Below, piece by piece: positions 36,130 through 62,522 of a stretch of 64,000 bases of DNA (positions are counted from its first letter, which is position 1; each line of letters begins with the position of its first letter). A program made the translations under genes and the position numbers. The stretch covers positions 1 through 64,000 of the IMG/VR virus record IMGVR_UViG_3300029911_000026; one strand, written 5' to 3'. Source of the stretch: a virus. A model generated the notes under the pieces. It made no database searches. It saw nothing but the letters and a program-made list of their open reading frames with translations, and was not told the DNA's origin.

Positions 36130-36166
36130 CACTTCTCCTTTCCAGTAACCGGAACCTTGCACGTCC

Positions 36167-36310: not shown

Positions 36311-36342
36311 CACTTACCTACTTTCTTCACGCTGCACGTCCG

Positions 36343-37203: not shown

Positions 37204-37213
37204 GACAATCTCC

Positions 37214-38464: not shown

Positions 38465-38604
38465 TGGCCAGCCTCCATTTCGTCCGCCTCGGAATAGCTT
38501 GCCACGTCGGAGCGAACATCTGCCGGAAGAGATGCGAAGGAACCTGCGGCGACCTGCTCGGCGATTATGGGATCGAGCCAGCCGGTTTGTGTCGGTGTTT
38601 CCAT
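38461..38604 (-). CDS. Small acidic protein, first gene of operon, leaderless
   Basis: 47 residues from the ATG at 38604 (METPTQTGWLDPIIAEQVAA). There is no SD; the ATG follows the -10 box TAGTAT by 6 nt, so transcription probably begins at the start codon. Overlaps the next gene by ATGA. Function unknown. Confidence 0.6.
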   Translation of the reverse strand: METPTQTGWLDPIIAEQVAAGSFASLPADVRSDVASYSEADEMEAGQ

Positions 38605-38610
38605 ATACAA

Positions 38611-38639
38611 ATACTATCAAAGTATTAGCGTGATGTACA
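38611..38639 (-). promoter_or_regulatory. Phage-type promoter, leaderless output
   Basis: TGTACA, 17-nt spacer, TAGTAT with TGA before the -10. It drives the small-gene run and perhaps the structural genes beyond. Confidence 0.7.
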
Positions 38640-38644
38640 GGGAA

Positions 38645-40353: not shown

Positions 40354-40565
40354 TCGAGTGCCAACTTTCCGGATTCCGGAATCTTTCTCCGGTTCGTTCC
40401 GCGCGCCTTGAGCGCCTTGCGGTGATGGGAGCAGAGTGCCAGGGACGTTCCCCGGAAGTCTACGATCTTGGCCTTGCCGATGCCGCATGGCTCATGCCGG
40501 TGGGCCGGTGGTCGCTTGCGCCGCATGGTGGAAAGGCGATGCGTGATGAGCCATTTGCAGACCAC
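40350..40565 (-). CDS. Small Cys/His protein with repeat-encoded tail
   Basis: 71 residues from the GTG at 40565, chosen because GGAGG lies 6 nt upstream. Basic (MRRKRPPAHRHEPCGIGKAK) with ALCSHHRKALKARG, possibly an HNH- or zinc-like remnant. Ends KIPESGKLALE, encoded by the palindrome. ATGA overlap with the DUF5131 gene. Confidence 0.55.
   Translation of the reverse strand: MVCKWLITHRLSTMRRKRPPAHRHEPCGIGKAKIVDFRGTSLALCSHHRKALKARGTNRRKIPESGKLALE
40367..40381. repeat. Dispersed palindrome, copy 10 (C-terminal codons)
   Basis: Exact TTCCGGATTCCGGAA, read as Ile-Pro-Glu-Ser-Gly-Lys five codons before the stop. Confidence 0.95.
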
Positions 40566-40579
40566 GCATCGCCTCCGGA

Positions 40580-41083
40580 TTAGCTCTGGTGCGGTTCGCC
40601 ATTCGCCGGTTCGCGGATGACCCGCGCAACAGTGATGTCGCTATCCATCTCATGAACATCGACGACGGAATCGACATCGACGTTGAACACCCTCGCGAGT
40701 GCCGCCTTCTTGTCGTTCGGCGAGAGGTCGTCGTCGTGTTCGATCTCGCGACGTTTCGCTTCCATGTCGCGGTTGACCTTGGAGATGGCCGTCACCAGCG
40801 CACCCGAGACGTTCCGTGCACACACGTTGACCGGCGTCAAGTTTTGAATCCGATCCCCGTCCATCAGGGGGTAGCGGAACTTCACCGACCATAGCCGCAC
40901 ATTGCCGAGCGGGATAGCCAGGCCGAGTGCGACCTTGCCGGCCTCCTGCATCTTTTCTGCGGCACCCTCCATTGCGTGAGCGCCAGCGTGGAGCTTGGCG
41001 ACCTGAGCGTCGAACTCCGAGGTATCGAAGTGAACCCCAACCTTGATAACGTCTACCCTTTCCTTCTTGCCCTTCTTCTTCAT
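40580..41083 (-). CDS. Hypothetical protein
   Basis: 167 residues from the ATG at 41083 (AAGGAGG upstream). Lys-rich start, then VGVHFDTSEFDAQVAKLHAGAHAMEGAAEKMQEAGKVALG, a helical middle and an acidic end. No motif recognised. Could be a DNA-metabolism accessory protein by location. Confidence 0.55.
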   Translation of the reverse strand: MKKKGKKERVDVIKVGVHFDTSEFDAQVAKLHAGAHAMEGAAEKMQEAGKVALGLAIPLGNVRLWSVKFRYPLMDGDRIQNLTPVNVCARNVSGALVTAISKVNRDMEAKRREIEHDDDLSPNDKKAALARVFNVDVDSVVDVHEMDSDITVARVIREPANGEPHQS

Positions 41084-41140
41084 CTGTCCTGCCTCCTTCG
41101 CCCTGCGTAGCAGGGGAACTTTGCCCACCGCGCAATGCGG

Positions 41141-41722
41141 TCAGGTAATCTTTGCGTTGAACGCCCGTTGCCTAGCGTCACTGAGCTCTTGAAACTCCGC
41201 CTGGGAGCCGCCCCTCATGTCTGGGTGCCGGGTCCGTGCGAGCCTCTTGAACTGTGCCTCAATCTGAGGGATGGTGGCCGTAGCTTCGTCGAGGTCGAGA
41301 ACCTCACCCCACGGGCGTTGCGTGCCAGTGCCGAGCGCCTTGAATCCAGAGAAGGCGCGCTCCATCATGTCCGAGGCTCCCCAACGCTCGATGCCGCGAA
41401 GGCTATCGATGGTCTTACCGATGGCGGTCAGGTTCTCCCGGATGGTGTCGAAGCGGTCACAGGCGAATACAACCTGCTTACCGTTGCGGGTGAAATAGAC
41501 GGCGACGCCAGCGTCCAGAGGGTCGCGGTCCATGCGCATCTTACCGTCTGCGCGGAGCGGAGCGTTGCTGGAGATGACGATGGCTGTGCCATCCATGCGC
41601 TGGACTTCGGCCTCCACCAGCCGGTGAGCCTTGTCGGTTCCGATCTTGAAGCGGGAGGCGCTCGGGTACTTAGTGCGCTCCCAGCCAGACGGCCATTGCA
41701 GCGGAAAGGCGGCGACATTCAT
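41141..41722 (-). CDS. J-domain-like protein
   Basis: 193 residues from the ATG at 41722. The last 50 residues (IPQIEAQFKRLARTRHPDMRGGSQAEFQELSDARQRAF) look like a DnaJ domain with HPD intact. The N-terminal part (YPSASRFKIGTDKAHRLVEAEVQRMDG and VYFTRNGKQVVFACDRFDTIRENLTAI) is a phage-specific region. It may recruit host DnaK. Confidence 0.7.
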   Translation of the reverse strand: MNVAAFPLQWPSGWERTKYPSASRFKIGTDKAHRLVEAEVQRMDGTAIVISSNAPLRADGKMRMDRDPLDAGVAVYFTRNGKQVVFACDRFDTIRENLTAIGKTIDSLRGIERWGASDMMERAFSGFKALGTGTQRPWGEVLDLDEATATIPQIEAQFKRLARTRHPDMRGGSQAEFQELSDARQRAFNAKIT

Positions 41723-41988
41723 CGGCTGACCTCTGAGAACTCCACCGGGAGCCGGAGGCGTGAGCCGCGGATGGTCACGTCGGCGTACCATTCGTTCGGT
41801 GCGGGGTGCGTACCTGGTTCAATGGTCTTTTCCAGAGCGCAGCGGGTGTGCGGGACGACGGATGAGTTGCGGGTGTCGATGACGACGGTCTGGGAGCCGG
41901 TGTCCCAATCGTTCGCGCGCGTAGGGGTGATGACCACCTTCAAATCAGGCAGCTTGGTCGAGCGCACGGTTCTGAGCTTAGTCGTCAT
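41719..41988 (-). CDS. Small hypothetical protein
   Basis: 89 residues from the ATG at 41988. The ATG comes 4 nt after a palindrome copy and has no SD, so the start is less sure than others. Beta-rich (VVITPTRANDWDTGSQTVVIDTRNSS and WYADVTIRGSRLRLPVEFS). Overlaps the J-domain gene by ATGA. Confidence 0.5.
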   Translation of the reverse strand: MTTKLRTVRSTKLPDLKVVITPTRANDWDTGSQTVVIDTRNSSVVPHTRCALEKTIEPGTHPAPNEWYADVTIRGSRLRLPVEFSEVSR

Positions 41989-42125
41989 AGGATTCCGGAT
42001 TCCGGAAAGAATGGCCGGGCACGATACGCCCGTAACGTCCCGGCCTCGGGTAAGGTGGCAGCTTGGACGAGGAGCCCGCTGTCTCCCGGAGACGCCCATG
42101 AGCGCGTCCTCGCTGGGTGCTCCAC
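41985..42125 (-). CDS. Possible small ORF ending in repeat-encoded residues
   Basis: A GTG at 42125 opens 46 codons ending FFPESGIL, whose stop overlaps the next ATG (ATGA). It has no good SD. The overlap and the C-terminal PESG seen elsewhere are the only support. Confidence 0.25.
   Translation of the reverse strand: MEHPARTRSWASPGDSGLLVQAATLPEAGTLRAYRARPFFPESGIL
41993..42007. repeat. Dispersed palindrome, copy 11 (before a start codon)
   Basis: Exact TTCCGGATTCCGGAA ending 4 nt before the ATG at 41988 on the minus strand. Confidence 0.95.
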
Positions 42126-42130
42126 CAAAG

Positions 42131-42628
42131 TTAGTCGATCTTCTCGCCCGCTCCCATGTTGAACTCGGGCTGGATCTCCTGCATCCGCAGGTAGAACGTC
42201 TCGGTATTGTTCTTCGTGGCCCAGCAGACCAAGGGGATGAGCAGCTTGTCGTCCGGCTTGATCGTGGTCGAGAAGGTGAGGTAGCGGGTCGTGGGCGAGC
42301 CGTCTGCCGGGGTGGGACGGAATACCTGGAGGTTCTGGAGATGGCACTGACCGAGGGCGATGACCGCCACCTTGCTGTCACTCTTCTCGAAGACGTCGAG
42401 CCATTGATCAAAGCTGAGGTCGATCGTGGCTTCGGTAATGCCGTTCGCCAGGACTCCGAGCGTATCGGCTGCGGCGAGGATGGTCGGAGGGGCAACTTCC
42501 AGCACTTCATCTGTCAGGGGAACCTCGAAGTCGAGGCGCACGCGCTTTTCCTTCTGGCTATTGCAGAGCGGGACCCACTTGGCCAGGGTTACCGCGATGG
42601 CGTTGTCGGTTGTGTCGATGAACTTCAT
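42131..42628 (-). CDS. Hypothetical protein under its own promoter
   Basis: 165 residues from the ATG at 42628 (AAGGAG, 9-nt spacing). Beta-rich with LDFEVPLTDEVLEVAPPTILAAADTLGVLANGI and VFRPTPADGSPTTRYLTFSTTIKPDDKLLIPLV. First gene after a TTGACG-type promoter. No family recognised. Confidence 0.55.
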   Translation of the reverse strand: MKFIDTTDNAIAVTLAKWVPLCNSQKEKRVRLDFEVPLTDEVLEVAPPTILAAADTLGVLANGITEATIDLSFDQWLDVFEKSDSKVAVIALGQCHLQNLQVFRPTPADGSPTTRYLTFSTTIKPDDKLLIPLVCWATKNNTETFYLRMQEIQPEFNMGAGEKID

Positions 42629-42658
42629 GGGGTGAGTCTCCTTATGTTCGTACCAAGA

Positions 42659-42687
42659 CCATAGCAGCATATTGTTAGTACGTCAAT
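42659..42687 (-). promoter_or_regulatory. Phage promoter with operator-like motif
   Basis: TTGACG, 17-nt spacer, TATGGT. The spacer contains GTACTAACAAT (42672-42682), shared with the promoter at 49.65 kb. Confidence 0.6.
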
Positions 42688-42846
42688 GTGGACATTTGGG
42701 CGTGGTTGTGGATTTCCAGTGGAAGGGGAGGCAAGAGGCGCAAGTCCTCTGTAATCGAACGGATTCGCCCGGAAAACATGCCGTAGGATGCCCGTGGTGC
42801 GGCTAACGCAAGTGGACCTGTGGGGTAGGTATCTTCCAGACGAGAA

Positions 42847-42874
42847 CGCCGCCGGAGACAGTCTCCGACGGCGG
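42847..42874 (-). terminator. GC-rich hairpin downstream of the tRNA-like gene
   Basis: GCCGCC/GGCGGC plus GGAGA/TCTCC form a long stem with a short loop. The T tract is poor (GTTCTCGTC). The surrounding 42690-42974 region holds no convincing gene. Confidence 0.5.
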
Positions 42875-42974
42875 CCTGAATCTCGTCAGGCTCATGCCAG
42901 GGTGTGTGCTGGCGCTCTATGAAGTCTGCGGCACTTCGCCTTTGGCTTTCGCCTACTGCCGCAGTCAGGCATCT

Positions 42975-43068
42975 TGGAGCGGGGTTCCGGGTTCGAACCG
43001 GCGGCCTCCGGGCTGGAGCCAACCTTGCGGCTGACCTGACCGACGCTCTACCACTGAGCTACCCCCGC
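42975..43068 (-). tRNA. tRNA-like gene, anticodon uncertain
   Basis: GCGGGGG acceptor, GCTCAGTGGTAGAGC D arm, GG(T)TCGAAC T loop and encoded CCA are clear. The anticodon arm TCGGT-CAGGTCA-GCCGC places GGT (Thr) in the loop, but position 33 is A instead of T and 27-43 is unpaired. The 7th acceptor pair and one T-stem pair are also mismatched, and the variable region is about 24 nt. It may be degraded or non-canonical. Confidence 0.6.
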
Positions 43069-43114
43069 GGTAGCGTGGCGGCAACGTTCTGGGCCCAGCC
43101 ACCACGACTCGTCA

Positions 43115-43143
43115 ACAGTAGCAGGGTCGGGCTGCTCAGTCAA
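43115..43143 (-). promoter_or_regulatory. Promoter of the tRNA-like gene
   Basis: TTGACT, 17-nt spacer, TACTGT on the minus strand, with the tRNA-like 5' end about 40 nt downstream. It overlaps the 3' end of the ParB-like gene. Confidence 0.5.
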
Positions 43144-44047
43144 TGGCATCCTTGGCGAGTAGTTCCAGCGCCTTCAAGGGGTTTGGGGCCTTGCCGGAAT
43201 CGACCAGCCTGGAGAGCGCTGCGGTAAGCAGCTTGGCGGTTGCGGCTGGGATGCGGTCGGCGCCGAACACGGCTGCGAGCGGGAAGTATTCGCGGTCGCG
43301 GCGGGCGGGCAGATACTCCTGCAGGTCGTCCAGATGCCGGCTGAACACGTCGAGCAGGACCATCAGGGAGGTAGCAGCGTTGCTGACGCCCTTGGATCCT
43401 CCAGCCGCGGCCATCAGGTCGAGCCATGAGTCGTATTCGGCGTGGCGCAGCAGCCAGGTCCGGTCGCCGCTTACCTGCTTCAAGAGACCTTCGATGATCG
43501 TCTGCGCGCGTTCGAGCTCGTCCGGCAGGAAATACATCGTCAGGGTCTTGGCCTCGAGCGCTGCCTCGGAGAAGGCGATCGGGGACACCTTCTCCAGCAG
43601 TTCGAGCGTGCGGTCGTCGAGGCCGCAGTAGACTTTCAGATCCACGGTTCCAACCTGCTCGTAGAGCTTGCGGAGCGTTGCCGGGTCGTCCTGGCCGGTG
43701 ATGGCGTTGTGGGAGAGCTGAATAGCTATCTTCTGCTCCTCGGTGAGCGGGTCGTGCGTGACCATGACCCAGATCTCGTCGAGGCCGGCGGCAATCGCGG
43801 CTTTCGTGCGATGGTTCCCGGAGAGGACTTCGTAGACCCATTCGCCAGCTTCCTTGACGCCGAAGGCGAAGGGAACGGAGCTGAGGCATCCGTCGCGGCG
43901 CACGTTGGCGACCAGGAGCTGGAACTGCTCGTGCGTCATGTAGCGCGCGTTCAGCTCGCGGAGGCGGAGCTTACGCGGGTCGATTTGGACCAGCTTCGTG
44001 CTTACTGTTCCGCTCGCTTGCCCTTTGTCGAGAATCGCTTCTTCCAT
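43136..44047 (-). CDS. ParB-like nuclease-domain protein
   Basis: 303 residues from the ATG at 44047 (AGGAGGGG upstream). LVQIDPRKLRLRELNARYMTHEQFQLLVANVRRDGC and YEVLSGNHRTKAAIAAGLDEIWVMV are the ParB N-terminal fold. The C-terminal half is helical. In phages such proteins may act as nucleases, methyltransferase partners or regulators. Confidence 0.75.
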   Translation of the reverse strand: MEEAILDKGQASGTVSTKLVQIDPRKLRLRELNARYMTHEQFQLLVANVRRDGCLSSVPFAFGVKEAGEWVYEVLSGNHRTKAAIAAGLDEIWVMVTHDPLTEEQKIAIQLSHNAITGQDDPATLRKLYEQVGTVDLKVYCGLDDRTLELLEKVSPIAFSEAALEAKTLTMYFLPDELERAQTIIEGLLKQVSGDRTWLLRHAEYDSWLDLMAAAGGSKGVSNAATSLMVLLDVFSRHLDDLQEYLPARRDREYFPLAAVFGADRIPAATAKLLTAALSRLVDSGKAPNPLKALELLAKDAID

Positions 44048-44250
44048 TCCGCAAGCCCCTCCTGGAGCGTCCATCGTCCATAGTCGGCGAGATAGTTCAG
44101 CATGAATCCGCCGGCCGCGTAGCCATTCATCGGGTCGTCGGCATCGATGTTCTGACGGCTGGTGAGCCGGAACAGGCCGCGGTACTTCATCGACACCGGG
44201 CGCTTCGAGAAGGCGGTCGTCGCAACTGCGCTGACGCGGCGCTTGAGCAT
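44002..44250 (-). CDS. C-terminal fragment of a longer protein, frame open upstream
   Basis: 82 residues from the only ATG (MLKRRVSAVATTAF). The same frame is open upstream to about 44456 and reads convincingly (IQVDNGVSYVYLLSDFPVAPASYDKLAKLVLYAALSREGQ, in shorter words a globular domain) but has no start codon. Probably the 3' part of a gene whose 5' part lies in another frame at 44372-44512. Confidence 0.45.
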   Translation of the reverse strand: MLKRRVSAVATTAFSKRPVSMKYRGLFRLTSRQNIDADDPMNGYAAGGFMLNYLADYGRWTLQEGLAEWKKRFSTKGKRAEQ

Positions 44251-51336: not shown

Positions 51337-51879
51337 TTACTTGATGACCAGGTAGCGCTTGCCGGGATGGTCCTCGATGGCAACCTCTGGGGGGATGGCT
51401 TCTCCAGCCGCAAGACGGCGCTGGATCTCCGACTTGTTCAATTCGTGCGTCGTGCGCACGATGCTGGGGTCGGTGATGGCGATCGTGTTCAGATCCGCGT
51501 CCGCCGCCAGCCCGACGGTGACGGTGTTCGCTCCGGTGACGCCATAGGCGCTGGTCTTGGCGGTCTTGATCTTGCCGCCGTGGACCTCGTCGATGAGCAT
51601 GAGCATCCGGGAGCGCAGGTTGTCAGCGTCGCGCTGGAACATCTTCTTGCGGTCGGCCATGCGCTTGCTCTCTTCGTCGGCCATCTCAGCCTCGGCCTTG
51701 ATGCGGCGCCAGACGGCGGCAGCGGCGTCGAGCTTATCGGGACTGGAGCGGAGACAGGCGTCGAGACGGGCTTCCAGCTCAGGCGTGAGTTCGCCTTCCG
51801 TCTCCTGGAGGATGAGCATGATGTCCTGATGTTCCTGGACGATAGCGAAGATCGTCGGGCGGTTCGGTTTGTCCGTCAT
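51337..51879 (-). CDS. Gp157-like protein
   Basis: 180 residues from the ATG at 51879. ELTPELEARLDACLRSSPDKLDAAAAVWRRIKAEAEMADEESKRMADRKKMFQRDADNLRSRMLMLI is the coiled-coil core of the siphovirus Gp157 family, often linked to recombination or replication modules next to Sak-type ATPases. Confidence 0.78.
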   Translation of the reverse strand: MTDKPNRPTIFAIVQEHQDIMLILQETEGELTPELEARLDACLRSSPDKLDAAAAVWRRIKAEAEMADEESKRMADRKKMFQRDADNLRSRMLMLIDEVHGGKIKTAKTSAYGVTGANTVTVGLAADADLNTIAITDPSIVRTTHELNKSEIQRRLAAGEAIPPEVAIEDHPGKRYLVIK

Positions 51880-51985
51880 AAGGCTCCCTTTTGGTTGCGG
51901 GTTGGGGTTTGGGCGCACAGGCCGAGCAGAGCTCGACCTCCATGCCGTTGATCATGGTCCACTGGCCCTTGCAGCAGGGTTTCAT
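51779..51985 (-). CDS. Small zinc-ribbon protein
   Basis: 68 residues from the ATG at 51985, which overlaps the upstream stop (ATGA). MKPCCKGQWTMINGMEVELC and SAC give a CC...CxxC metal site. Its 3' end overlaps the Gp157-like gene by about 100 nt, which is long and lowers certainty. Confidence 0.45.
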   Translation of the reverse strand: MKPCCKGQWTMINGMEVELCSACAPKPQPATKREPYDGQTEPPDDLRYRPGTSGHHAHPPGDGRRTHA

Positions 51986-52098
51986 GAAGGCTTTCTCTTG
52001 CCGCACCAGAAACATTCATTGGCCGGTCTGGTCGGGCCGTCGTCGTAAACATGGCCTCCATGGCGTATCGAGCACCACAATTCTCTTAGCCAGGTCAT
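51982..52098 (-). CDS. 38-residue zinc-like protein
   Basis: From the ATG at 52098, overlapping the ATPase stop (ATGA). LWCSIRHGGHVYDDGPTRPANECFWCGKRKPS has a C...CxxC pattern often seen in small phage proteins. Translationally coupled on both sides. Confidence 0.55.
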   Translation of the reverse strand: MTWLRELWCSIRHGGHVYDDGPTRPANECFWCGKRKPS

Positions 52099-53546
52099 TC
52101 TGCGGCCTCCAGCTCTTCGGTAAGCGTCTGCGAGCCTGGGAGGATGTTCTCCGGGTCGATCGTGAGCGGCACTTCGGAGATGATCTTTCCCTTCATGTAG
52201 TGCTTCGTACCGACGCAGGTCACGTCCTCGATGCTCACGTAGTTATCCTTGGCCGGCTTGAGTACCATGTTGCACGTCTGGCCCTTCGCCTCTGATAGGG
52301 CCGGGAACAGCGACTTGTGCCAGCATGTAGCGGTGTTGGTTCCAAAGGCAACGCCGTTCATTGTGACCTTGAAGAACTCGCGGCCGCCAGCGGCTTCGTG
52401 GCGGGTCGCATCGAGCACAACGCATTGCACGTCGCCGTTATCGAAGAAGAACTCCCCAGCTTCGCCCTGGTTCTCATCCTCAGCCGCGGCGAATCCAGCA
52501 CCAGCATCGGCCAGCAGTTCAAGCTCGCGGTTGATGGATGGCCAGTCGCTACGATGCTTCTGGATGAGCAAGGCGCGGGCTCCAGCGTCCATGCGCAGAG
52601 CGTCCATCGACTGCCGAGCGATCTTCTCATCGTTCGAGACGCGCGTGCGGTCGAGCCAGCTTGTCAGCTCGAATAGGCGTGAGCGCGGGACCAAGCGGGA
52701 GGACTCGTAGCCCAAGCCCTTGACGTGTTCGGCGAACACTTCGCGGGTAATGCTGTTGGCCTTCATCATGCCGGCCAGGTTTAGGATGTCCGCTTCGGTG
52801 AGAAGTTCGACGGGGGGAACGATGCCGGAACTTAGCCACTTCCAGATCTTCCGCGCCGTCTCCGGGTCCAGCAGATCAACCGGTGGCCCTCCGGCGAACA
52901 GCTCAGTCCGGTCCTTACTCACAAAGGCGCGGTGCTCGCTGTCCAGGTCGAACACCAGCGAAAACTCGTAGTCGACGCCCTCGCGCTGGATAGGGGCAAG
53001 GCCGACCTTGCGGGGAACCTTCTTACCGTCCCGCTCCTCCAGCACGTATTCCATCTTCGAGCGCATCGTGCAGATCGTGTGGACGTCGAGCGCTTTGATG
53101 AACTCGATGAACTCGGTGTGCTCTGGCGAGAGCTTCGACCAATTGGCGAAGCCGTTACCTCCAGCCGCGTCGAGAGCGTCCTTGCGCGAGCGTATGCCCC
53201 CTGCGCCTTCCCATTGGTGGGAGATGGAGTCCACTACCAGCACGTCATAGCCCTGGGTCACAGCAATCTGCATGGCGCGCTTGTAGCGGTCGCTCGTATA
53301 GGGCGAGGTCAGATGGATGTGATCGAAGGGGTAGATGTCGGCGTAGAGCTCCATGGTGCGGTTCTCGGTATCGACTCCGAGGACCTTCCAATCTCCGGGC
53401 TTGCCGCGGTCAACGGCCATCTGCTGTGCGATTGCGACGGCCAGCGCGAGAGCGCCTTTGGTCTTGCCTGAGCCGCTTGCACCATCTACGGCCATCTTGA
53501 GCTTTACGCGGGACTTGACCGCGCGGCGGGGGGTGAACTCGTCCAT
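52095..53546 (-). CDS. Sak4-like RecA-fold ATPase
   Basis: 483 residues from the ATG at 53546 (GGAG 6 nt upstream). Walker A GASGSGKT (22-29), VLGVDTENRTMELYAD and YDVLVVDSISHQWEGAGG (Walker B region) match AAA_24/Sak4 annealing-type ATPases. The C-terminal half (about 320-483) may bind DNA. Probably a recombination ATPase acting with Gp157-like protein. Confidence 0.75.
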   Translation of the reverse strand: MDEFTPRRAVKSRVKLKMAVDGASGSGKTKGALALAVAIAQQMAVDRGKPGDWKVLGVDTENRTMELYADIYPFDHIHLTSPYTSDRYKRAMQIAVTQGYDVLVVDSISHQWEGAGGIRSRKDALDAAGGNGFANWSKLSPEHTEFIEFIKALDVHTICTMRSKMEYVLEERDGKKVPRKVGLAPIQREGVDYEFSLVFDLDSEHRAFVSKDRTELFAGGPPVDLLDPETARKIWKWLSSGIVPPVELLTEADILNLAGMMKANSITREVFAEHVKGLGYESSRLVPRSRLFELTSWLDRTRVSNDEKIARQSMDALRMDAGARALLIQKHRSDWPSINRELELLADAGAGFAAAEDENQGEAGEFFFDNGDVQCVVLDATRHEAAGGREFFKVTMNGVAFGTNTATCWHKSLFPALSEAKGQTCNMVLKPAKDNYVSIEDVTCVGTKHYMKGKIISEVPLTIDPENILPGSQTLTEELEAAE

Positions 53547-53557
53547 CTTCGTCTCCA

Positions 53558-53572
53558 TTCCGGAATCCGGAA
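53558..53572. repeat. Dispersed palindrome, copy 14 (before a start codon)
   Basis: Exact TTCCGGAATCCGGAA in the leader of the ATPase gene, 11 nt before its ATG and directly before the SD. Confidence 0.95.
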
Positions 53573-53582
53573 AACACGGGGC

Positions 53583-53608
53583 CGAAAAGGGCACCCTCTC
53601 GGGTGCCC
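53583..53608 (-). terminator. Terminator of the RHH gene
   Basis: GGGCACCC-GAGA-GGGTGCCC followed by TTTTC on the minus strand, a perfect 8-bp stem. Confidence 0.85.
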
Positions 53609-53634
53609 TCGCGGTGCTCATCTGCCAGAGCTGG

Positions 53635-53847
53635 CTAGGCGGCTTTCGCCTTCTCTTGCGATCGGATGTGACTGAGCACGACATCCATGATGAAGCTAGA
53701 CATCGAGCGTCGGTCTGCGGTAGCCGCTGCCACTATAGCCTCCCGCTCCTGTGGTGTGGAGGGATAAACCATAATGGGACCGGTTTTCAACTTTCCACCG
53801 CGAGGCAGTTTCTCCGTCTCGGTAGCTTCCTGTGTCGCAGTGCTCAT
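53635..53847 (-). CDS. Ribbon-helix-helix regulator, leaderless and monocistronic
   Basis: 70 residues. GPIMVYPSTPQEREAIVAAATADRRSMSSFIMDVVLSHIRSQEK has the strand-helix-helix pattern of Arc/MetJ-type repressors (P-x-E-x-x-x-I ... SxSxFI). The ATG at 53847 follows the -10 by 7 nt without a SD. Own promoter and own terminator isolate it from both neighbours, typical of a regulator. RHH proteins bind palindromic DNA. Confidence 0.72.
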   Translation of the reverse strand: MSTATQEATETEKLPRGGKLKTGPIMVYPSTPQEREAIVAAATADRRSMSSFIMDVVLSHIRSQEKAKAA

Positions 53848-55505: not shown

Positions 55506-55775
55506 TCAGAATGATGGTGCGAAAACGTCGAACTCGGTTGCGGGCCGCGCGGCATCTTGCTCTGCGGCCAGTTGGCGGAAGTGAAGCTCGCGCTCGTGGC
55601 AGATGGGCTTGCCGGTGCGCCTGTAGAGGTTGCCCCAGCGGAACGCCAGGTGGTGAGGGCCATACTTATCGGCCCGGGCCTTCTTCGTGCTGACGAAAAC
55701 TCCATCGTCAACCTCGACGGTGCGGCCACCGGCGGAGCGGGGATATCCTCTCGGACGCTGCCAGATGCCTTTCAT
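55506..55775 (-). CDS. Small hypothetical protein
   Basis: 89 residues, basic. YPRSAGGRTVEVDDGVFVSTKKARADKYGPHHLAFRWGNLYRRTGKPICHERELH reads as a compact domain. Overlaps the Ku stop by ATGA, so the two are coupled. Confidence 0.5.
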   Translation of the reverse strand: MKGIWQRPRGYPRSAGGRTVEVDDGVFVSTKKARADKYGPHHLAFRWGNLYRRTGKPICHERELHFRQLAAEQDAARPATEFDVFAPSF

Positions 55776-56620
55776 GCAACCTTCTTTCTGGACACGGCCT
55801 CGACGGATGCGGTGAGCGCGGCGAGCATGTCCTGTTTCTCTGGGGCCGCGCGGCGGATGGGAATGACTGGAGCCTTGCCGTCGATCTTGGCGGCGACCAG
55901 GGCTTTGACGTTCACGACGTAGCCATCGGAGAAGTCCTCCGGGTTGAACGTGCCGGCCATGCCCTGCACCAACTGAGTGCCGAGCTTGACCTCTGCGGTC
56001 GAGAGGGTGAGCTGGTCAATCGGGAACGGAGCCGACTTGAGTTCCGACTGGTAGAACAGCGAGTGCAGCGCGATGCCCTGCTCAAAGGGACGGATGAGGA
56101 TGATCTGCTCACTGGACCCGAACGCTGCGCGCCCGATACCGACCTTGCCGGTCTTGCGAAGGATGTCGCGGATGAGCATGTAGGGCTTGGAACCGCCGTC
56201 GCCTGGGGCAACGTAGTGGCTAGTCTCGAAGTAGATAGGGTCAACGTCCGAGGCGTCGACGAAGCGGTCGATCTCGATGATGGTCGAGCTTTCCGGCTTC
56301 TGGGCTTCCAACTCTTCGGCGGAGATGACAACAAACTGGCCCTTGCGGTACTCGTAGCCCTTCACAATCTCGTCGCTGGCCACGTCCTCATTGCATTGTG
56401 GGCAGGTCATGGACTGCTGTTTCAGGGTGCCGAGGCACTTCGCATGAAGCTGGCGGAAGCGGATGCGGTCGGCGCGCGCGCCGGTGTGGAGCTTGATAGG
56501 GAAGGTGAGAAGCCCGATCTGGAGCGTCAGATTCGTTCCAGATGAGCGCTTAGGCTCGCTGATAGGCGAGACGTTGGACGGGGCGGGGAGTGCGGTAGGC
56601 TTAGCGGCTGATCTTGCCAT
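55772..56620 (-). CDS. Ku-like DNA end-binding protein
   Basis: 282 residues from the ATG at 56620 (AGGAG). TLQIGLLTFPIKLHTGARADRIRFRQLHAKCLGTLKQQSMTCPQCNEDVASDEIVKGYEY, ISAEELEAQKPESSTIIEIDRFVDASDVDPIYFETSHYVAP and ALHSLFYQSELKS are hallmarks of bacterial Ku; the CPQC pair is present. Ku homodimers thread onto double-strand ends and recruit a ligase. A C-terminal basic tail is seen. The partner ligase is 5 kb upstream. Confidence 0.85.
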   Translation of the reverse strand: MARSAAKPTALPAPSNVSPISEPKRSSGTNLTLQIGLLTFPIKLHTGARADRIRFRQLHAKCLGTLKQQSMTCPQCNEDVASDEIVKGYEYRKGQFVVISAEELEAQKPESSTIIEIDRFVDASDVDPIYFETSHYVAPGDGGSKPYMLIRDILRKTGKVGIGRAAFGSSEQIILIRPFEQGIALHSLFYQSELKSAPFPIDQLTLSTAEVKLGTQLVQGMAGTFNPEDFSDGYVVNVKALVAAKIDGKAPVIPIRRAAPEKQDMLAALTASVEAVSRKKVA

Positions 56621-56774
56621 AAGGCTCCTGTAACTGCTCGAATGGTTCGGTGTAGCGCTGGTCGCGTTCCGCAATTCGGAAAGCAACCGCGCCCACGGTG
56701 GTTTGGAACCGGAAGGCCAGATATTCGAGCATGAGCTCGGTATGGTCGGTCGCGGTGATGGGCATAATGTCCAT
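56601..56774 (-). CDS. 57-residue protein, leaderless, first gene of Ku operon
   Basis: From the ATG at 56774 (MDIMPITATDHTELMLEYLA). No SD; the ATG follows TAGTAT by 6 nt. Its 3' end overlaps the Ku start by 20 nt, so Ku translation is coupled. Function unknown. Confidence 0.6.
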   Translation of the reverse strand: MDIMPITATDHTELMLEYLAFRFQTTVGAVAFRIAERDQRYTEPFEQLQEPYGKISR

Positions 56775-56780
56775 GAACTA

Positions 56781-56809
56781 ATACTAACATTGTACTAGTG
56801 TACTGTCCA
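56781..56809 (-). promoter_or_regulatory. Phage-type promoter of the Ku operon
   Basis: TGGACA, 17-nt spacer, TAGTAT, with TGT before the -10 and ACTAACATTGT over the spacer. Confidence 0.7.
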
Positions 56810-56830
56810 CAAAATTCAGCATGGCGAGCA

Positions 56831-56856
56831 AAGAAAATGGGCCGGTTTCCCGGCCC
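56831..56856 (-). terminator. Terminator after DUF932 gene
   Basis: GGGCCGG/CCGGCCC with a GAAA-type loop followed by ATTTTCTTTG. Confidence 0.85.
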
Positions 56857-56924
56857 AAAAGTTCCTTCAATCGCTACAAACTGAGGTAGACGGACTTCCG
56901 GCGCCGGGCGAGCCGCTAATCGTT

Positions 56925-56939
56925 TTCCGGATTCCGGAA
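56925..56939. repeat. Dispersed palindrome, copy 16 (after DUF932 stop)
   Basis: Exact TTCCGGATTCCGGAA starting 3 nt after the stop codon of the DUF932 gene. Confidence 0.95.
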
Positions 56940-56941
56940 AG

Positions 56942-57994
56942 TTAGACGGTCGCCAGCTCCAGTCCGGCGATCTCCGCCGCCGCGATGATGGCGCGCTGCT
57001 TCAAGCGCTCTCCCTCACCGAACCATGCGGCTGTCATGCGGCTTTCCTGGGTCCGCCCGCGCTGGTGGTCAGCGTAGTACGTCACTCCATTGACAGCTCC
57101 CCAGAGGGTGCCCTTGGCCGATGAAAGCTCGGAGCCCGGTGAGTTGATGGTGGCCTGTTGGATGGTGCGCGCGACGTAGGTCAGATCGGCCTTCTTTGGG
57201 TCGATGACCTTTGCCTCGTCTCCGCCCATGAGACGGTTCATGAAGTCCATCCAGCCGGACTCGTCGATTGTGACCTTGGCCAACTGCTCGGCCAGATCGT
57301 TCGTGGCGATGACCTGCTGGCCGGCCATGCCCATGATGCTCTTGGCCTCGTCGCGACGTGCCGGTGTCCACTCTCCGCCGTGGGAGAACTTGAACCCGTG
57401 CTGGAGTGACGTCTTACTGCGGTTGCCCCAGAGCGCCGCGCTGAGGGTGTTCCAGCAGACGACCCGGACCTGAGTGGCCCGGCCCATCGTACTCAGCTTG
57501 CCGTCGTGAGACGTGGTGAGCAAGAGGTAGCCGCGGAGCTCGTCAGTTCCCTGGAGCGTCTTGGTCGTCCCGCCATTCAACCGGGCAAGAGCCCAGACGA
57601 TGGCACCGCCATTGAGTCCGCCGACCGTCTCCATGGTGGCGTGACCAGCCTCGCAGTACTCATTGAAGAAGTTGACGACTTCCTCGTTCTGCACCGGATG
57701 GTAGAACGGTGAGGCGATCTGGAACACCTTGCCGGTGTCGCTGCGGGTGATGGCCGAGAAGTTCTTGCCGGCCGCGGGGTCGAACGCACTGTGGGGATTC
57801 TCCATCGCGGAGATCTCGTCCTGCGTGTAGGGAGCGGTTGCAATCGCCACAGGGCGCTTCTCAACCGTCCAGTCCAGTCCGGCCAGCTTCAACATCTCCG
57901 GACCCTTCGTACCGGGAGCAACTTCCACTCCCAGACCATGCCAGGGCCGCTCACCCTGATAAGCGATCATGTTCTCTTCGATCATGTGTGCCAT
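56942..57994 (-). CDS. DUF932 protein
   Basis: 350 residues. PWHGLGVEV, YQIASPFYHPVQNEEVVNFFNEYCEAGHATMETVGGLNGGAIVWALARL, VVCWNTLSAALW and NGVTYYADHQRGRTQESRM match DUF932, common in phage and plasmid accessory regions; function unknown. First gene after the promoter at 58072. Confidence 0.82.
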   Translation of the reverse strand: MAHMIEENMIAYQGERPWHGLGVEVAPGTKGPEMLKLAGLDWTVEKRPVAIATAPYTQDEISAMENPHSAFDPAAGKNFSAITRSDTGKVFQIASPFYHPVQNEEVVNFFNEYCEAGHATMETVGGLNGGAIVWALARLNGGTTKTLQGTDELRGYLLLTTSHDGKLSTMGRATQVRVVCWNTLSAALWGNRSKTSLQHGFKFSHGGEWTPARRDEAKSIMGMAGQQVIATNDLAEQLAKVTIDESGWMDFMNRLMGGDEAKVIDPKKADLTYVARTIQQATINSPGSELSSAKGTLWGAVNGVTYYADHQRGRTQESRMTAAWFGEGERLKQRAIIAAAEIAGLELATV

Positions 57995-58637
57995 TTGCTC
58001 GTCTCTCCTGTGGCGCTGCGAGCGCCGTTGGCCCAGGGACCGCTGGGGCGGTGTGAGTTTCTATAGAGTCAATACTAACATTGTGACTGCGTGGCGTACA
58101 GGAGTTTTCGAGCTTTATTTGCTCGACCGTGACGCCGTTAGCGAGCCTGGCTTGGCAGCTATGCCGAACCTTCTTCGCCTCGCGGTCGCACCATTCGTTG
58201 ACGAAAGAGCGCGGCTGGTCGATGCCTGTATGGGCGCGGATGTGCTTCAACCAGACCTTGAGGCCGGCGGCGTTGGCGGCATCCATGGCCAGCTTCGCGA
58301 ATTCTCGGCTGGTGCGACTCCCATGGTTCTCGCAGATGGGATGGTCGGTAGTTTTAGCCGGTCTAGCGCCGAGGGTCATTAGGACGCCGAGCGCGCGTAG
58401 GCTGTCGGACTGTGCGACGATGGCGCCGCCTGGTTGCGTCTCGAAGCCATTGATCGCGGCGAGTATGGCGCAACAGAGGCCCACCGTCTCCGCTTCGTGA
58501 TTGTTCGGGCATGGCCATTCGCCAGAGGCGCAGATGCGCTTGGAGCCATCACCGCGGACCCAATAGGCAAAGCCTCCAGCTTGCTTGCCGCGCCTGTCCC
58601 ATGAGGCGTCTGCGAAAACAGTCAGGAGCCGGTTCAT
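57951..58637 (-). CDS. RNase H-like protein 1
   Basis: 228 residues from the ATG at 58637. Catalytic-type residues appear in LTVFADASWD, NHEAETVGL, VAQSDSLRAL and SFVNEWCDREAKK, spaced as in RNase HI. The last about 45 residues run through the promoter at 58072 and overlap DUF932 by 44 nt, so they may be non-essential. It would remove RNA primers or R-loops. Confidence 0.7.
   Translation of the reverse strand: MNRLLTVFADASWDRRGKQAGGFAYWVRGDGSKRICASGEWPCPNNHEAETVGLCCAILAAINGFETQPGGAIVAQSDSLRALGVLMTLGARPAKTTDHPICENHGSRTSREFAKLAMDAANAAGLKVWLKHIRAHTGIDQPRSFVNEWCDREAKKVRHSCQARLANGVTVEQIKLENSCTPRSHNVSIDSIETHTAPAVPGPTALAAPQERRANGTHDRREHDRLSG
58072..58100 (-). promoter_or_regulatory. Phage-type promoter of the DUF932 gene
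   Basis: TGTACG, 17-nt spacer, TAGTAT with TGT before the -10, inside the 3' end of the RNase H gene. Leader of about 70 nt with SD AGGAG. Confidence 0.7.
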
Positions 58638-58858
58638 CTGATCTTGCCCTCCGTCCGCAGCTTGTTCTCCATCTTCATCATCATGTCCGGGAGCGCGGCG
58701 ACGCACTTCGCCTCGGTCGCCAGGATGCGAAGACACTCGTCTGTGACGCGCAGCCGGTCGGCGAGCTGGAACGTAAGGCGCGTCTGCTTATCTGGCTTCG
58801 TCGAGGCCCGTCGCCGGAGAAGCGCTTTGAGCTCGGAGATTCTGGCGTCGGTGATCAA
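58634..58858 (-). CDS. Small helical protein, TTG start
   Basis: 74 residues. The TTG at 58858 overlaps the upstream stop (TTGA), with AGGGG upstream. Basic and helical (ITDARISELKALLRRRASTKPDKQTRLTFQLADRLRV). Function unknown. Confidence 0.5.
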   Translation of the reverse strand: MITDARISELKALLRRRASTKPDKQTRLTFQLADRLRVTDECLRILATEAKCVAALPDMMMKMENKLRTEGKIR

Positions 58859-59235
58859 TGGACTGGACCCCTGTCTGCCATGTCGAGTAGCGCCGAGAGG
58901 TTGTAAGCGACTCGGTCCTTTTCGTCGCCAGGATGGATGGTCGCCCCGCGGGAGATGCGGCGCATGAGATCTCCGGAGCTGCGGCCCGTCTCGTAGGCCC
59001 ATGCGAGGAATTCCTCTATGTTCGGCTCGTAGGCAACGATGATGTCTACTGCGCTGATAGGGACGCCGGGGTTGTGCGGGAGGAACGGGCTGGAGGCGAC
59101 CAGTAGAGGCGCGAGCATGGCACCGCGAACGGCCTGTGGGTCGCTGGCGGCGATGCGCTCCATGTTCTGCTGCGACATGATGATGACGATGGTCAGGCCG
59201 CCGTCGAGCTTCGGGAGGGGGATGACTATGGGCAT
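58855..59235 (-). CDS. Hypothetical protein
   Basis: 126 residues from the ATG at 59235. GGLTIVIIMSQQNMERIAASDPQAVRGAMLAPLLV then an IEEFLAWAYETGRSSGDLMRRIS helix. Overlaps its upstream neighbour by 10 nt. Not recognised. Confidence 0.55.
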   Translation of the reverse strand: MPIVIPLPKLDGGLTIVIIMSQQNMERIAASDPQAVRGAMLAPLLVASSPFLPHNPGVPISAVDIIVAYEPNIEEFLAWAYETGRSSGDLMRRISRGATIHPGDEKDRVAYNLSALLDMADRGPVH

Positions 59236-59567
59236 GTGAGGCGCTCCGATTCCTTGGGCGCGGCCGTCTCGCCCAATATGAAGGCTACATCGACGACTTG
59301 ACCGTCGGTGATGGAGTCGAAATTCTTCTGCACCCATTCATGCGCGATGGGGATTGTGCGTGGGCCCTTGCCGAGCACTCCCCATCCGTAAGTGTCGGAC
59401 GTAGCGGCCTGGTCGCCCAGAAGCATCAGCACGATGGTCGAGTCGGACCCATCGAACCCAACGCGACGAAGGTAGTAAGCCTGGTTCGGGTTGCTTGGCG
59501 TCATGCGGATGGCCATGGCTCCAATGAAAGTGCCGTGGTCACGAATCTCTACGATCTTGATTTCCAT
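59226..59567 (-). CDS. Hypothetical protein
   Basis: 113 residues, alpha/beta (MEIKIVEIRDHGTFIGAMAIRM and YYLRRVGFDGSDSTIVLMLLGDQAATSDTYGWG). GGAGG lies 9 nt upstream of the ATG. Conserved-looking phage protein of unknown function. Confidence 0.6.
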   Translation of the reverse strand: MEIKIVEIRDHGTFIGAMAIRMTPSNPNQAYYLRRVGFDGSDSTIVLMLLGDQAATSDTYGWGVLGKGPRTIPIAHEWVQKNFDSITDGQVVDVAFILGETAAPKESERLTCP

Positions 59568-59713
59568 TAGTACTTACCTCCGAGCAGAAAGAGTACCGCC
59601 AAGCCGATGAACAGCACGGCCAGCGTTTTGAAGATGAATGGGTTGACCTCGGGACCGCTGCGCGGCTGGCGCTCCCAATCCGATTTGCGAAAGTCTGCCT
59701 TTTGAAACTTCAT
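59567..59713 (-). CDS. Small single-helix membrane protein
   Basis: 48 residues from the ATG at 59713 (GGGGAGGG). Basic N-terminus then IFKTLAVLFIGLAVLFLLGG at the C-terminus. Tail-anchored topology. Unknown role. Confidence 0.6.
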   Translation of the reverse strand: MKFQKADFRKSDWERQPRSGPEVNPFIFKTLAVLFIGLAVLFLLGGKY

Positions 59714-60315
59714 CCGAGCCCTCCCCGATCGTCGCATTCTTCGCGGTTCTTGCAAGTGCATCTCTCGTCTGGCGTCGAGTAGAAGCCTGACTTGTCGCAC
59801 CACCAGCAATGGTCGCAGAGGTTCCAGTCGTCGTTACCGGGGAAACAATCGCGACAAATGGAGCACCATACGGAATCGCTTTCGATGCCGTTGCTCTGGA
59901 GCCAGTCGAGCATGTCCTGTCCCGGCTTGAGGTCGATAGCCTTGGGTAGTTTGGTGAGGCGCCGCGTCCGGTTGCGCTTCCGTACCGCGATGGTCCTCGG
60001 CTTGTCGTCGAATGGCTCGCTGTCCCGCGCATCAACCCATTGCGGCTCTTTCTCGACGATCTTAGGATTACCGATGCCGCTTACGTGATAGATGCCCCGG
60101 ACTTCGATGGTGCTGCGCCCGCCAGCTCCGCTCATGTGGAGCAGATAGCCGAACTTGCGCGAGTAGTCAACGTCCCAGAGTTGCTTGCAAACGTAGACCC
60201 TGCCTTCGTAGCCCTTCTCCTCTTGAAGCACGGTGAGGTTGTTGACTCTGACGATGCCACGGCCATCCTTGAAGAACTCCGCTACGACGCTTCGGGTGAG
60301 AATTTGCTCTTTCAT
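59710..60315 (-). CDS. Zinc-rich hypothetical protein
   Basis: 201 residues from the ATG at 60315 (GAGAGG). The C-terminal 60 residues (CSICRDCFPGNDDWNLCDHCWWCDKSGFYSTPDERCTCKNREEC) hold about ten Cys, likely two zinc sites. N-terminal part is a beta domain. Overlaps neighbours by 4 nt. Confidence 0.55.
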   Translation of the reverse strand: MKEQILTRSVVAEFFKDGRGIVRVNNLTVLQEEKGYEGRVYVCKQLWDVDYSRKFGYLLHMSGAGGRSTIEVRGIYHVSGIGNPKIVEKEPQWVDARDSEPFDDKPRTIAVRKRNRTRRLTKLPKAIDLKPGQDMLDWLQSNGIESDSVWCSICRDCFPGNDDWNLCDHCWWCDKSGFYSTPDERCTCKNREECDDRGGLG

Positions 60316-61139
60316 GACGGCCTCTCCAGTACGACCAGCACGGCGTTGACCGCCGTTCCGGACTCGATGAATGAACCGGCCGGCAAGTCCATGATGTTGC
60401 CGTGCCCGCTGTTGACCAGTTCGCGGATCTGAACGTATTCCGTCTCGCGGCGGAACTTGACGCTCGAGGCCGCGACGCTGACCAGTATGCCTCCGGGCCG
60501 GAGCAGCATGTAGGCGCGAAGGATATGCTGCGCGTCCTGCCGGTTCTCGAAAGGGGGGTTGGCGAGTATCCGGTCGAACTCGGTATCGCCCTTCTCGTAG
60601 ACCCATGTGTCGCCCATGAAATCGGACTGGCAGATAACGGCTCCGGGGAGCGCCTTGAGGGCCTGTGAGGCGCGTTGCTCGTCAATCTCGATGCCCAGGA
60701 TGGAGAAGGTGTCGAAGGCTGGCTCCAGCTCTTCGAGATGCTTGAGTAGCGCACCGTCTCCGCAGCTCGGCTCCAGAATCCGGTTGCCGGGGGTGAGCTG
60801 GGCGAAGTCGAGCATCCGCTCTACGACCGCCTTGGGGGTGCGGAAGAAGCCGTTCTTGCGTGGCGGAGCGATCTCGCCGGTGCGGATGCACTCGTCCAGC
60901 TTGGCGCGGACTTCCTCGACCGACTGCGGGAAGAGATGGCCTCCGGTGTGGCGGCTCCATTTGCCGCCTAGGTCTACCAGGACGGAGTTCACTCGGAGAT
61001 AGAGCTTGCGCTCCAGTTGCCCATCGCGGATGCGTACGATGGTATCAACGGCTGTGCCCTCGAAGTGGCGCTCCTCGATGTAACATCCGCTGAGGACTGC
61101 CAAAGCGTCGTCTGCGATGGTGAGCGTTACGGTTTTCAT
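60312..61139 (-). CDS. N6-adenine DNA methyltransferase-like protein
   Basis: 275 residues from the ATG at 61139. Motif I LEPSCGDGA (122-130), IEIDEQRASQAL and the catalytic NPPF (194-197) define a gamma/beta-type class N6-adenine methyltransferase. The N-terminal 90 residues are a phage-specific region. It may protect phage DNA from host restriction. No partner nuclease is adjacent. Confidence 0.8.
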   Translation of the reverse strand: MKTVTLTIADDALAVLSGCYIEERHFEGTAVDTIVRIRDGQLERKLYLRVNSVLVDLGGKWSRHTGGHLFPQSVEEVRAKLDECIRTGEIAPPRKNGFFRTPKAVVERMLDFAQLTPGNRILEPSCGDGALLKHLEELEPAFDTFSILGIEIDEQRASQALKALPGAVICQSDFMGDTWVYEKGDTEFDRILANPPFENRQDAQHILRAYMLLRPGGILVSVAASSVKFRRETEYVQIRELVNSGHGNIMDLPAGSFIESGTAVNAVLVVLERPS

Positions 61140-61855
61140 GCTGCCAACCTCCGTACTTCCTGCTTCTGTTTGAGTTGCGCCCAGGTGCAATCCGAGGCGT
61201 CTACGTCCGTGCGCGGCCCGAGGTCCTCCGGCTGGTAGAGACGCCCGCCGGCGCCCACATAAAGATATTTGATCTCTCGGTACGTTCCGGATTCCGGAAT
61301 CTCGGCCGTCTTGGTGAGGGTCACGGTGCCCACCGGATACCACTGGCCGAGCCGGTCGCAGTCGCAGACCTGGCAGGTCTGGGTGCGCTCGTCGAAGCTG
61401 GACATCTTCCACACGGCCTTGTGCGCTGGAACCGAGATGCCGTCCTCTCGCAGATGGGAGCCGATCTGGGGATGGTCGTCGCTCGCCCAGACCGAATAGG
61501 CGTCGAAGCGGAGAACCTCCACCGCGAAGCTCGCATGGCCGTCCTGCTTCTTCTTGTCGCAGACCCGAACGGTGGCGCTCTCCCAGAACTTGATCTTGAC
61601 GTTCGTTCCCTTCCGGCCCGGCATGTAGGGAGCGTCGAGGCGCTTGAATACGACGCCCTCACCGTTGGCCTCGCGCTCACCGAGCAGCATGGCGAACTTT
61701 GCATCCGCTCCCTGATAGAGCGGAGCGATCTTGACGATGCCCTGCAGACGGCTCCACAACCGGCCGTAACGCTCGATGTAGGGGATGGAGCGCAGATCTT
61801 CGCCGTCCAGCTCCAGCAGGTCGAACGCGACGTACTCGCCCAACTGAGGAGCCAC
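61136..61855 (-). CDS. ATP-dependent DNA ligase, C-terminal part (second frame)
   Basis: Frame opens at a GTG at 61855 and gives 239 residues. GEYVAFDLLELDGEDLR, NGEGVVFKRLDAPYMPG and NVKIKFWESATVRV are ligase motifs III, IV and V, and the end holds an OB-like region. It continues directly from the first frame after LDGE with a -1 shift. A palindrome copy is in frame (EIPESGTYREI). Either a frameshift product, an independently translated half or a decayed gene. Confidence 0.65.
   Translation of the reverse strand: MAPQLGEYVAFDLLELDGEDLRSIPYIERYGRLWSRLQGIVKIAPLYQGADAKFAMLLGEREANGEGVVFKRLDAPYMPGRKGTNVKIKFWESATVRVCDKKKQDGHASFAVEVLRFDAYSVWASDDHPQIGSHLREDGISVPAHKAVWKMSSFDERTQTCQVCDCDRLGQWYPVGTVTLTKTAEIPESGTYREIKYLYVGAGGRLYQPEDLGPRTDVDASDCTWAQLKQKQEVRRLAA
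61285..61299. repeat. Dispersed palindrome, copy 17 (inside ligase)
   Basis: Exact TTCCGGATTCCGGAA, in frame as Ile-Pro-Glu-Ser-Gly. Confidence 0.95.
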
Positions 61856-62445
61856 TCGCCGTCCAGCATGACGCTTATGCCGGCCTCGCGGAGCTTGGCG
61901 AGGACGTTCGATGGAATCTCCATCGGCTCGCCCTTGCGGTTGTAGGCAATGGCCCGGTGCGTCTCTACCGCGGTGAACGCAACCTCGATGGCCATGCGGT
62001 GACCGTCGTATTTCTTCTGGCCTCCGAAGGCATCGTTTTCAACGTACCTGGTAGCCTGACCGTCTGCCGGTTCGAGCAGTTCCGGCTCAAAGCGCCGCGC
62101 GGCTGGTTTCGGGAGGGTGATGGGCTCGGTGACGATCACGTTTGCCCGGTGTGCAACCGGGCTTGCGATGGCGGGAGTGTACTCGGTGGGGACATAGGTC
62201 CCCATGCAGCACTCGCAGCGCTTCCCGGTCTTTTCCGCAACCAGGCGTTCGTAGATGCGGAGAGCTTCGCCGTAGGGCAGAGGCGTCTTGGTCTTGGTGC
62301 CGAGGGTGAGAGCCTTTCCAATCGCCCCATATTGGAAGTTGACCAGCCAGAGGTCCGGAACTGGAATGTAGGGTGCCAGCTCCACGTTGTACTGCTTTGA
62401 GTGTCTGTCGTTCTGGAGGACCAGCGTGATGCTCTTTGGTTCCAT
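61321..62445 (-). CDS. ATP-dependent DNA ligase, N-terminal part with WGR-like domain
   Basis: Starts at the ATG at 62445 (AGGAG). Residues about 1-80 (SKQYNVELAPYIPVPDLWLVNFQYGAIGKALTLGTKT...ALRIYERLVAEKTGK) resemble a WGR domain. The ligase adenylation motif KYDGHRM starts at Lys145, and VMLDGE is motif III-like. After about residue 197 this frame leaves the ligase sequence; residues beyond (SWASTSRSTCWS on) look like out-of-frame translation to 61321. The continuation is in the -1 frame. Confidence 0.7.
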   Translation of the reverse strand: MEPKSITLVLQNDRHSKQYNVELAPYIPVPDLWLVNFQYGAIGKALTLGTKTKTPLPYGEALRIYERLVAEKTGKRCECCMGTYVPTEYTPAIASPVAHRANVIVTEPITLPKPAARRFEPELLEPADGQATRYVENDAFGGQKKYDGHRMAIEVAFTAVETHRAIAYNRKGEPMEIPSNVLAKLREAGISVMLDGEWLLSWASTSRSTCWSWTAKICAPSPTSSVTAGCGAVCRASSRSLRSIRERMQSSPCCSVSARPTVRASYSSASTLPTCRAGRERTSRSSSGRAPPFGSATRRSRTAMRASRWRFSASTPIRSGRATTIPRSAPICERTASRFQRTRPCGRCPASTSAPRPARSATATGSASGIRWAP

Positions 62446-62493
62446 GTCGTTTCTCCTGAGATTCGGCGGGTGCCGAGATTCGGTTCTATTTCA

Positions 62494-62522
62494 ATACTAA
62501 TAGAGTGCTAGCTGAATGTACA
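62494..62522 (-). promoter_or_regulatory. Phage-type promoter of the ligase gene
   Basis: TGTACA, 17-nt spacer, TAGTAT; leader of about 40 nt with SD AGGAG. Confidence 0.7.

Follow-up and report, generated by a model that had tools for sequence, protein, structure and literature searches.

Bases 1-64,000 (the window) of the 64,767-base metagenomic record IMGVR_UViG_3300029911_000026 carry two genes with predicted roles in DNA end joining, one for a Ku protein and one for a WGR-type ATP-dependent DNA ligase. An initial annotation had read them as a phage-encoded end-joining pair lying 5 kb apart. Their place in one region was confirmed, with a measured gap of 4.5 kb between the end of the ligase open reading frame (ORF) and the start of Ku. 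The ends of the record match each other over 164 columns (155 identical, one gap of 9 nucleotides (nt) within a short repeat), so that the map closes and the genome, of about 64.6 kb, is probably complete. The closed map says nothing on the virion ends. Based on its terminase, portal, head and sheath genes, this soil-type bacteriophage is assigned to the myoviruses. Contig L003 represents the same phage (99.8%) and spans only 30438-43428. The two assemblies differ by 19 substitutions and 0 indels over 12.9 kb, tandem repeat excluded.

The Ku protein

Judged by its profile matches, predicted fold and conserved C-terminal region, the ORF at 55772-56620 encodes a true bacterial-type Ku. It matches Pfam Ku PF02735 (8.5e-37), phrog_4873 'Ku-like DNA end binding' (1.5e-39) and, as its top sequence match in the PDB, the B. 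subtilis Ku 9vnq (5.9e-42), which bears out the 'convincing Ku' of the initial annotation. The structure prediction proposed there agrees. A model built from 19 viral Ku sequences (mean predicted local distance difference test (pLDDT) 81, predicted template modeling score (pTM) 0.60) first matched the Ku proteins of B. subtilis (E 3e-22) and M. tuberculosis (E 1.9e-19), with modest TM-scores of 0.57-0.73.

Individual residues were read from a 27-sequence alignment and are given in native B. velezensis (B. subtilis-type) numbering, derived in this analysis via the position of GLVNIP. The first DNA-binding pair, R32/K62, is conserved in the window Ku, as is K19. In the numbering used in the text of the B. 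subtilis Ku structure paper (PMC12784961), this pair corresponds to R49/K79. Substitutions are found at H2/W5/K6 (S/T/N), K89 (T), R109 (T), Y111 (H), R144 (G) and R171 (K). The minimal C-terminal region is conserved, with KQDMLAALTASVEA of the window aligning with VIDLVSALQASIDR, and its motif is retained in some form by the 26 other aligned Ku, including ones encoded beside their own ligase. In a phylogenetic tree the window Ku lies within a set of 11 rows that are all viral (support 89/85), next to jumbo-phage Ku (90/79). The mycobacteriophage Ku stand apart from it. The tree has weak support and long branches.

The ligase and its frame break

The ORFs at 61321-62445 and 61136-61855 are the halves of one WGR-type ATP-dependent DNA ligase gene in two frames, because both align with the intact ligase of phage Tunturi_5 (36% identity over 62445..61852 and 43% over 61837..61136). 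The initial annotation had correctly assigned a KYDG active site to the first ORF and a continuation to the second. It overlooked that, with the frame break, the record in its present form encodes no intact ligase. The second part sits in the -1 (equally +2) frame relative to the first. The nucleotidyltransferase motifs, which we take to be I, III, IIIa, IV, V and VI, are all present and are split over the two frames. The third-position G+C of the second half (0.82) is typical for the genes of this genome.

A 104-kb myovirus record, IMGVR_UViG_3300046792_000297 (G026), encodes a member of this WGR family in intact form. The fold model made for that ligase (mean pLDDT 80, pTM 0.57) matches archaeal, LigD (LigD-LIG), LigIV and LigE DNA ligases. 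Pfam WGR gave no match in the window ligase part and stayed slightly below the cut-off in G026, while two plasmid relatives were matched (5.5e-8 and 2.7e-5). A domain search found no NAD ligase domain in the window record. Relatives of the WGR-ligase were found in 18 of 72,556 plasmid records, annotated as 'WGR domain-containing protein' or ligase, and at 28 viral loci, seven of which (L095-L101) align only from query residue 112 at the least, outside the WGR part. The plasmid ligases (Variovorax, Acidisarcina, Mycolicibacterium, Acidiphilium) and Tunturi_5 gp61 resemble the window ligase over its full length, with a WGR-type N-terminus (putative in the window ligase), the ligase motifs and the C-terminal part. 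In contrast to it, they are intact. Viral-contig scans with single proteins (Ku, the 3' half of the ligase, AAA_24) gave no relatives, nor did one with a two-row ligase alignment, and a genome-contig scan with the ligase returned weak, uninformative matches only.

The break may be either a true mutation or an assembly error. Programmed -1 frameshifting was considered; no slippery heptamer was seen by eye at the break. Termination with reinitiation was rejected, as the first ORF has no early stop. A search with a spaced DNA pattern spanning the break did not find a second copy of the region. The 0 indels against L003 speak against a generally sloppy assembly; L003 ends short of the ligase.

Ku and ligase genes in other viral records

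Among 50,697 phage records, Ku was found by tblastn in 81, namely 80 mycobacteriophages and one doubtful scaffold. The latter, MT838252 ('Bacteriophage sp.', the sole non-mycobacterial match), was rejected as a source of phage Ku: a formamidopyrimidine-DNA glycosylase gene adjoins its Ku, and it is probably bacterial DNA. According to the organism tally, the Ku of Streptomyces phage BillNye, named in the text of PMC11936186, is absent from the 81 records, so that such counts miss divergent Ku.

A Ku-alignment scan of IMG/VR (about 2.9 million contigs) yielded 26 loci. These include near-duplicates (L037/L038 are one match; L039, L040, L041 and L057 another), two partial matches (L058 and L059) and many fragments. 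TerL (phrog_2) is present in seven of the 26 records, and in two others a baseplate J and a GH25 lysin are encoded close to Ku. A PF01068 ligase accompanies Ku in 7/26 records, with G009 and G010 apparently representing a single virus. In G026 three ORFs read in one direction within 2.5 kb: the intact WGR-ligase, an ORF of 98 amino acids (aa) and Ku, with the ligase about 0.3 kb upstream of Ku. G007 and G017 encode Ku and a stand-alone ligase of 313 or 317 aa in overlapping ORFs. In two further records, viral by their filing, Ku is followed by a BRCT-ligase about 0.4 kb on (G028) or lies 2.9 kb from the ligase (G018). The distance is about 10 kb in G009/G010. A 300-kb record whose TerL match is weak, G052, encodes Ku and a 297-aa ligase 2.3 kb apart on one strand. 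The LigD polymerase domain PF21686 was found in none of the eight Ku and ligase records tested. Conversely, Ku is present in 2 of the 28 viral records with a related ligase. This is far above chance, since the Ku scan found only 26 loci in about 2.9 million contigs; both scans are incomplete and biased to long contigs.

Both genes of the Ku-ligase pair are thus genuine, and their pairing recurs. With respect to the open-access literature, this recurrence in other viral records is new here. Two prophage papers list LigD-like ligases, with no Ku reported in the text available (PMC12429752, PMC5567305). The side-by-side position of Ku and ligase in other phage genomes hints at a phage-owned DNA end-joining kit. 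As side observations, a BRCT-domain ATP ligase adjoins Ku in viral-contig record L056 (11257-12531), and in G017 (L045 12859-14034) a single viral record combines Ku with two ligases, one ATP- and one NAD-dependent.

Neighboring genes and dispersed repeats

The features of the window are collected in Table 1. This gene stretch is flanked by two RNase H-like genes. The stop codon of the ligase overlaps the start of the methyltransferase-like gene (ATGA), which couples the two. The DUF932 protein is 43% identical to a DUF932-like protein encoded just before a WGR-ligase in L077. Adjacency to RNase H was dropped as a general trait of WGR-ligases, as inspection of seven viral loci by eye did not show it.

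Table 1. Features of the window, in order of position
Feature	Position	Strand	Remarks
Tandem repeat	36538-36819		unit of ~27 bp
DUF5131 protein	39208-40488		9.9e-78
ParB-like gene	43136-44074		
Gp157-type protein	51337..51918	(-)	PHROGs 'Mu Gam-like end protection' 2.6e-13; Pfam Sipho_Gp157 3.1e-15
AAA_24 protein	52095..53684	(-)	same early-type region as Ku and ligase
Ku, 282 aa	55772..56620	(-)	beta-barrel domain and minimal C-terminal region QDMLAALTASVEA; extended basic tail nearly absent
AATGTTAGTATT, promoter-like motif	56780..56791	(-)	~160 nt upstream of Ku
DUF932 protein	56942..57994	(-)	directly upstream of Ku
Second RNase H-like gene	57951..58736	(-)	
AATGTTAGTATT, promoter-like motif	58071..58082	(-)	upstream of DUF932
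Methyltransferase-like gene	60312..61139	(-)	profile matches begin within this reading
WGR-ligase, second part (ORF 61136-61855)	61136..61837	(-)	AFDLL, GEGVVFK, VKIKFW, GPRTD (motifs IIIa, IV, V, VI)
Frame break	61838..61851	(-)	14 nt that separate the conserved DGEW (to 61852) and EYVAFDLL (from 61837)
WGR-ligase, first part (ORF 61321-62445)	61852..62445	(-)	putative WGR-type N-terminus; motif I KYDG; NRKG; LDGEW
TTAGTATT, variant copy	62493..62500	(-)	~48 nt upstream of ligase start
RNase H-like gene	62532..63098	(-)	ends 86 nt upstream of ligase start

The octamer TTAGTATT occurs three times in 64 kb (0.18 expected; 0/100 shuffles reach three), upstream of the ligase, DUF932 and Ku. Two of these sites agree exactly over the longer AATGTTAGTATT, and another match, of 11 nt (AATACTAACAT), was located at record position 64145, beyond the window. 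This agrees with the 'same promoter type' of the initial annotation; the octamer is a putative promoter-like element.

The AAA_24 protein is presumably a Sak4-like recombinase, going by the names of its relatives. The Gp157-type protein was considered as a second end binder of the Mu Gam type and dropped, because its PHROGs and Pfam labels conflict. Pfam Mu_Gam (PF07352) matched none of 32 records, including the window phage; it matched none of the controls either, so that this is weak evidence. The copy number of the tandem repeat is not the same in the second assembly, L003.

The palindrome TTCCGGANTCCGGAA is present in 18 exact copies over the window, the first at 401 and the last at 63214, and in 20 copies when up to two mismatches are allowed (0.4 expected). 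Some copies stand directly after stop codons and some are in frame within genes. Corndog-type Ku phages bear 34 copies of a different dyad, and in the Ku phage locus L049 TTAGTACNNGTACTAA is present 11 times within 20.8 kb. No dispersed dyad was found in G026. Besides the ParB-like gene of the window phage, one lies two genes from Ku in Catdawg (L104 749-2257). The ParB-like proteins might bind the dispersed dyads.

Comparison with known systems

To our knowledge, phage Ku has been described almost only from actinobacteriophages, with the host LigD as its presumed partner. The known phage Ku are said to recruit this LigD. The Ku of Omega (cluster J) and Corndog (cluster O) resemble that of the window in being phage-encoded and of the bacterial type, and in their conserved minimal C-terminus. 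Further parallels in the Corndog type are a ParB-like gene close to Ku and a dyad repeated throughout the genome. In contrast to these phages, the window Ku shares about 30% identity or less with theirs and lies outside their tree branch, and the window phage has a myovirus gene set and a WGR-ligase gene. A PF01068 ligase was found in none of the four Ku mycobacteriophage records tested.

The bacterial Ku-LigD systems (B. subtilis, M. tuberculosis) share the Ku fold and the minimal C-terminus. Unlike LigD, the window ligase has no polymerase domain and bears a putative N-terminal WGR-type domain instead. A close counterpart of the pair is seen in G026, where Ku and a ligase of the same family occur in a record whose portal, major head, sheath and terminase genes belong to families also present in the window phage. 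It differs in its intact ligase, in the short distance to Ku and in sequence (Ku 31% and the ligase halves 30-39% identical to those of the window).

A proposed end-joining mechanism and its alternatives

In the favored explanation, to which a probability of about 0.4 is given, Ku and the stand-alone ligase form a two-component end-joining kit, which the phage has, or had before the frame broke. A Ku homodimer would load on double-strand DNA ends, either the termini of the linear genome after injection or breaks left by host nucleases, and would hold two ends together. The ligase would then seal them, its putative WGR domain probably recognizing the strand ends, and the LigD polymerase would play no part. 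The joint action of the two proteins, the sensing of ends by WGR and the purpose (circularization or break repair) are what we infer. If the frame break is real, the window genome would fall back on host LigD via the conserved C-terminal region of Ku. In this genome the pair is a putative working system at most, and the ligase reads as broken.

The recurring pairing (G026, G052, G007, G017 and others) is what a phage-encoded end-joining pair, as claimed in the initial annotation, predicts. The eight records free of the LigD polymerase domain, the DUF932 gene next to Ku here and to a WGR-ligase in L077, and the promoter-like octamer ahead of both genes count in its favor as well. The claim is supported in part, and several points weigh against it. 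No single open frame exists for the ligase in the record. The second, minor-groove DNA-binding motif of Ku is mostly lost, and its positions vary in many other phage Ku as well. The initial annotation had named a non-functional ligase together with a Ku lacking its DNA-bridge residues as grounds for abandoning the pair; the ligase frame is indeed broken, while Ku keeps its first DNA-binding pair. Moreover, no Ku is seen in 26 of the 28 viral records that hold a related ligase, and no ATP ligase in 19 of the 26 viral records with Ku, although many of the latter are fragments. Ku was found nowhere in Tunturi_5, the phage with the closest ligase, nor within the flanks shown of the five plasmid WGR-ligase loci opened. 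Finally, the RNase H-like gene directly before the ligase suggests nick sealing in replication.

A wider reading remains tentative. Here, viral end joining would be self-sufficient, with Ku and a stand-alone ligase that has its own end-sensing domain (of the WGR, BRCT or zinc-finger type), would have arisen several times independently and would need neither LigD nor host help. The window phage would be a member with a broken ligase.

In the model known from Omega and Corndog, the phage gives only Ku, and host LigD, recruited via the minimal C-terminal region, circularizes the injected genome. The WGR-ligase would be a separate nick sealer, acting with RNase H in replication or repair. Ku-aided circularization in phages is described in PMC4351075 and PMC3706429 (both citing Pitcher 2006), whose text gives 4-nt 3' ends for known Ku phages and proposes non-homologous end joining as the route. 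Host LigD could be the real partner here too, because the window Ku retains the C-terminal region that, as reported in the text of PMC9638933, suffices for LigD binding in B. subtilis and P. aeruginosa. The ligase-free mycobacteriophage records, the RNase H-like gene and the many WGR-ligases without Ku fit as well. However, this motif does not single out host LigD, because Ku encoded beside their own ligase (L035, L045, L054) bear it too. Close linkage of Ku and ligase is also seen repeatedly in unrelated viral records. Overall, this model is a serious rival, though less probable than the favored explanation.

Less probable still is a true pseudogene, with the Ku-ligase pair non-functional in this lineage as decaying cargo. 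The break offers ribosomes neither a stop at which to end and restart nor a visible slippery site, and random assembly indels are not common here, given the agreement with the independent assembly. However, that assembly does not reach the ligase, an assembly error could still account for a single break of 1-2 nt in 64.7 kb, and the 3' half of the ligase is strongly conserved with its coding composition kept. It is similarly improbable that Ku merely caps DNA ends against nucleases of the RecBCD/AddAB type, with an unrelated ligase: the conserved first DNA-binding pair would suit such a role, and Mu Gam, a Ku homologue, blocks RecBCD loading according to the text of PMC1378119 and of a preprint (PMC12407980), but the window Ku retains a C-terminal region beyond the end-binding core, Ku is linked to ligases in other records, and the genome already has a Gp157-type protein that is Gam-like per PHROGs (Pfam disagrees).

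If the favored explanation is true, phages with Ku and a ligase could circularize or mend their genomes in hosts without end joining and could withstand nuclease-based defenses. Their two proteins would be the smallest natural end-joining kits. The phages with Ku and a WGR-ligase also raise the question of whether the WGR domain stands in place of the Ku-binding parts of LigD.

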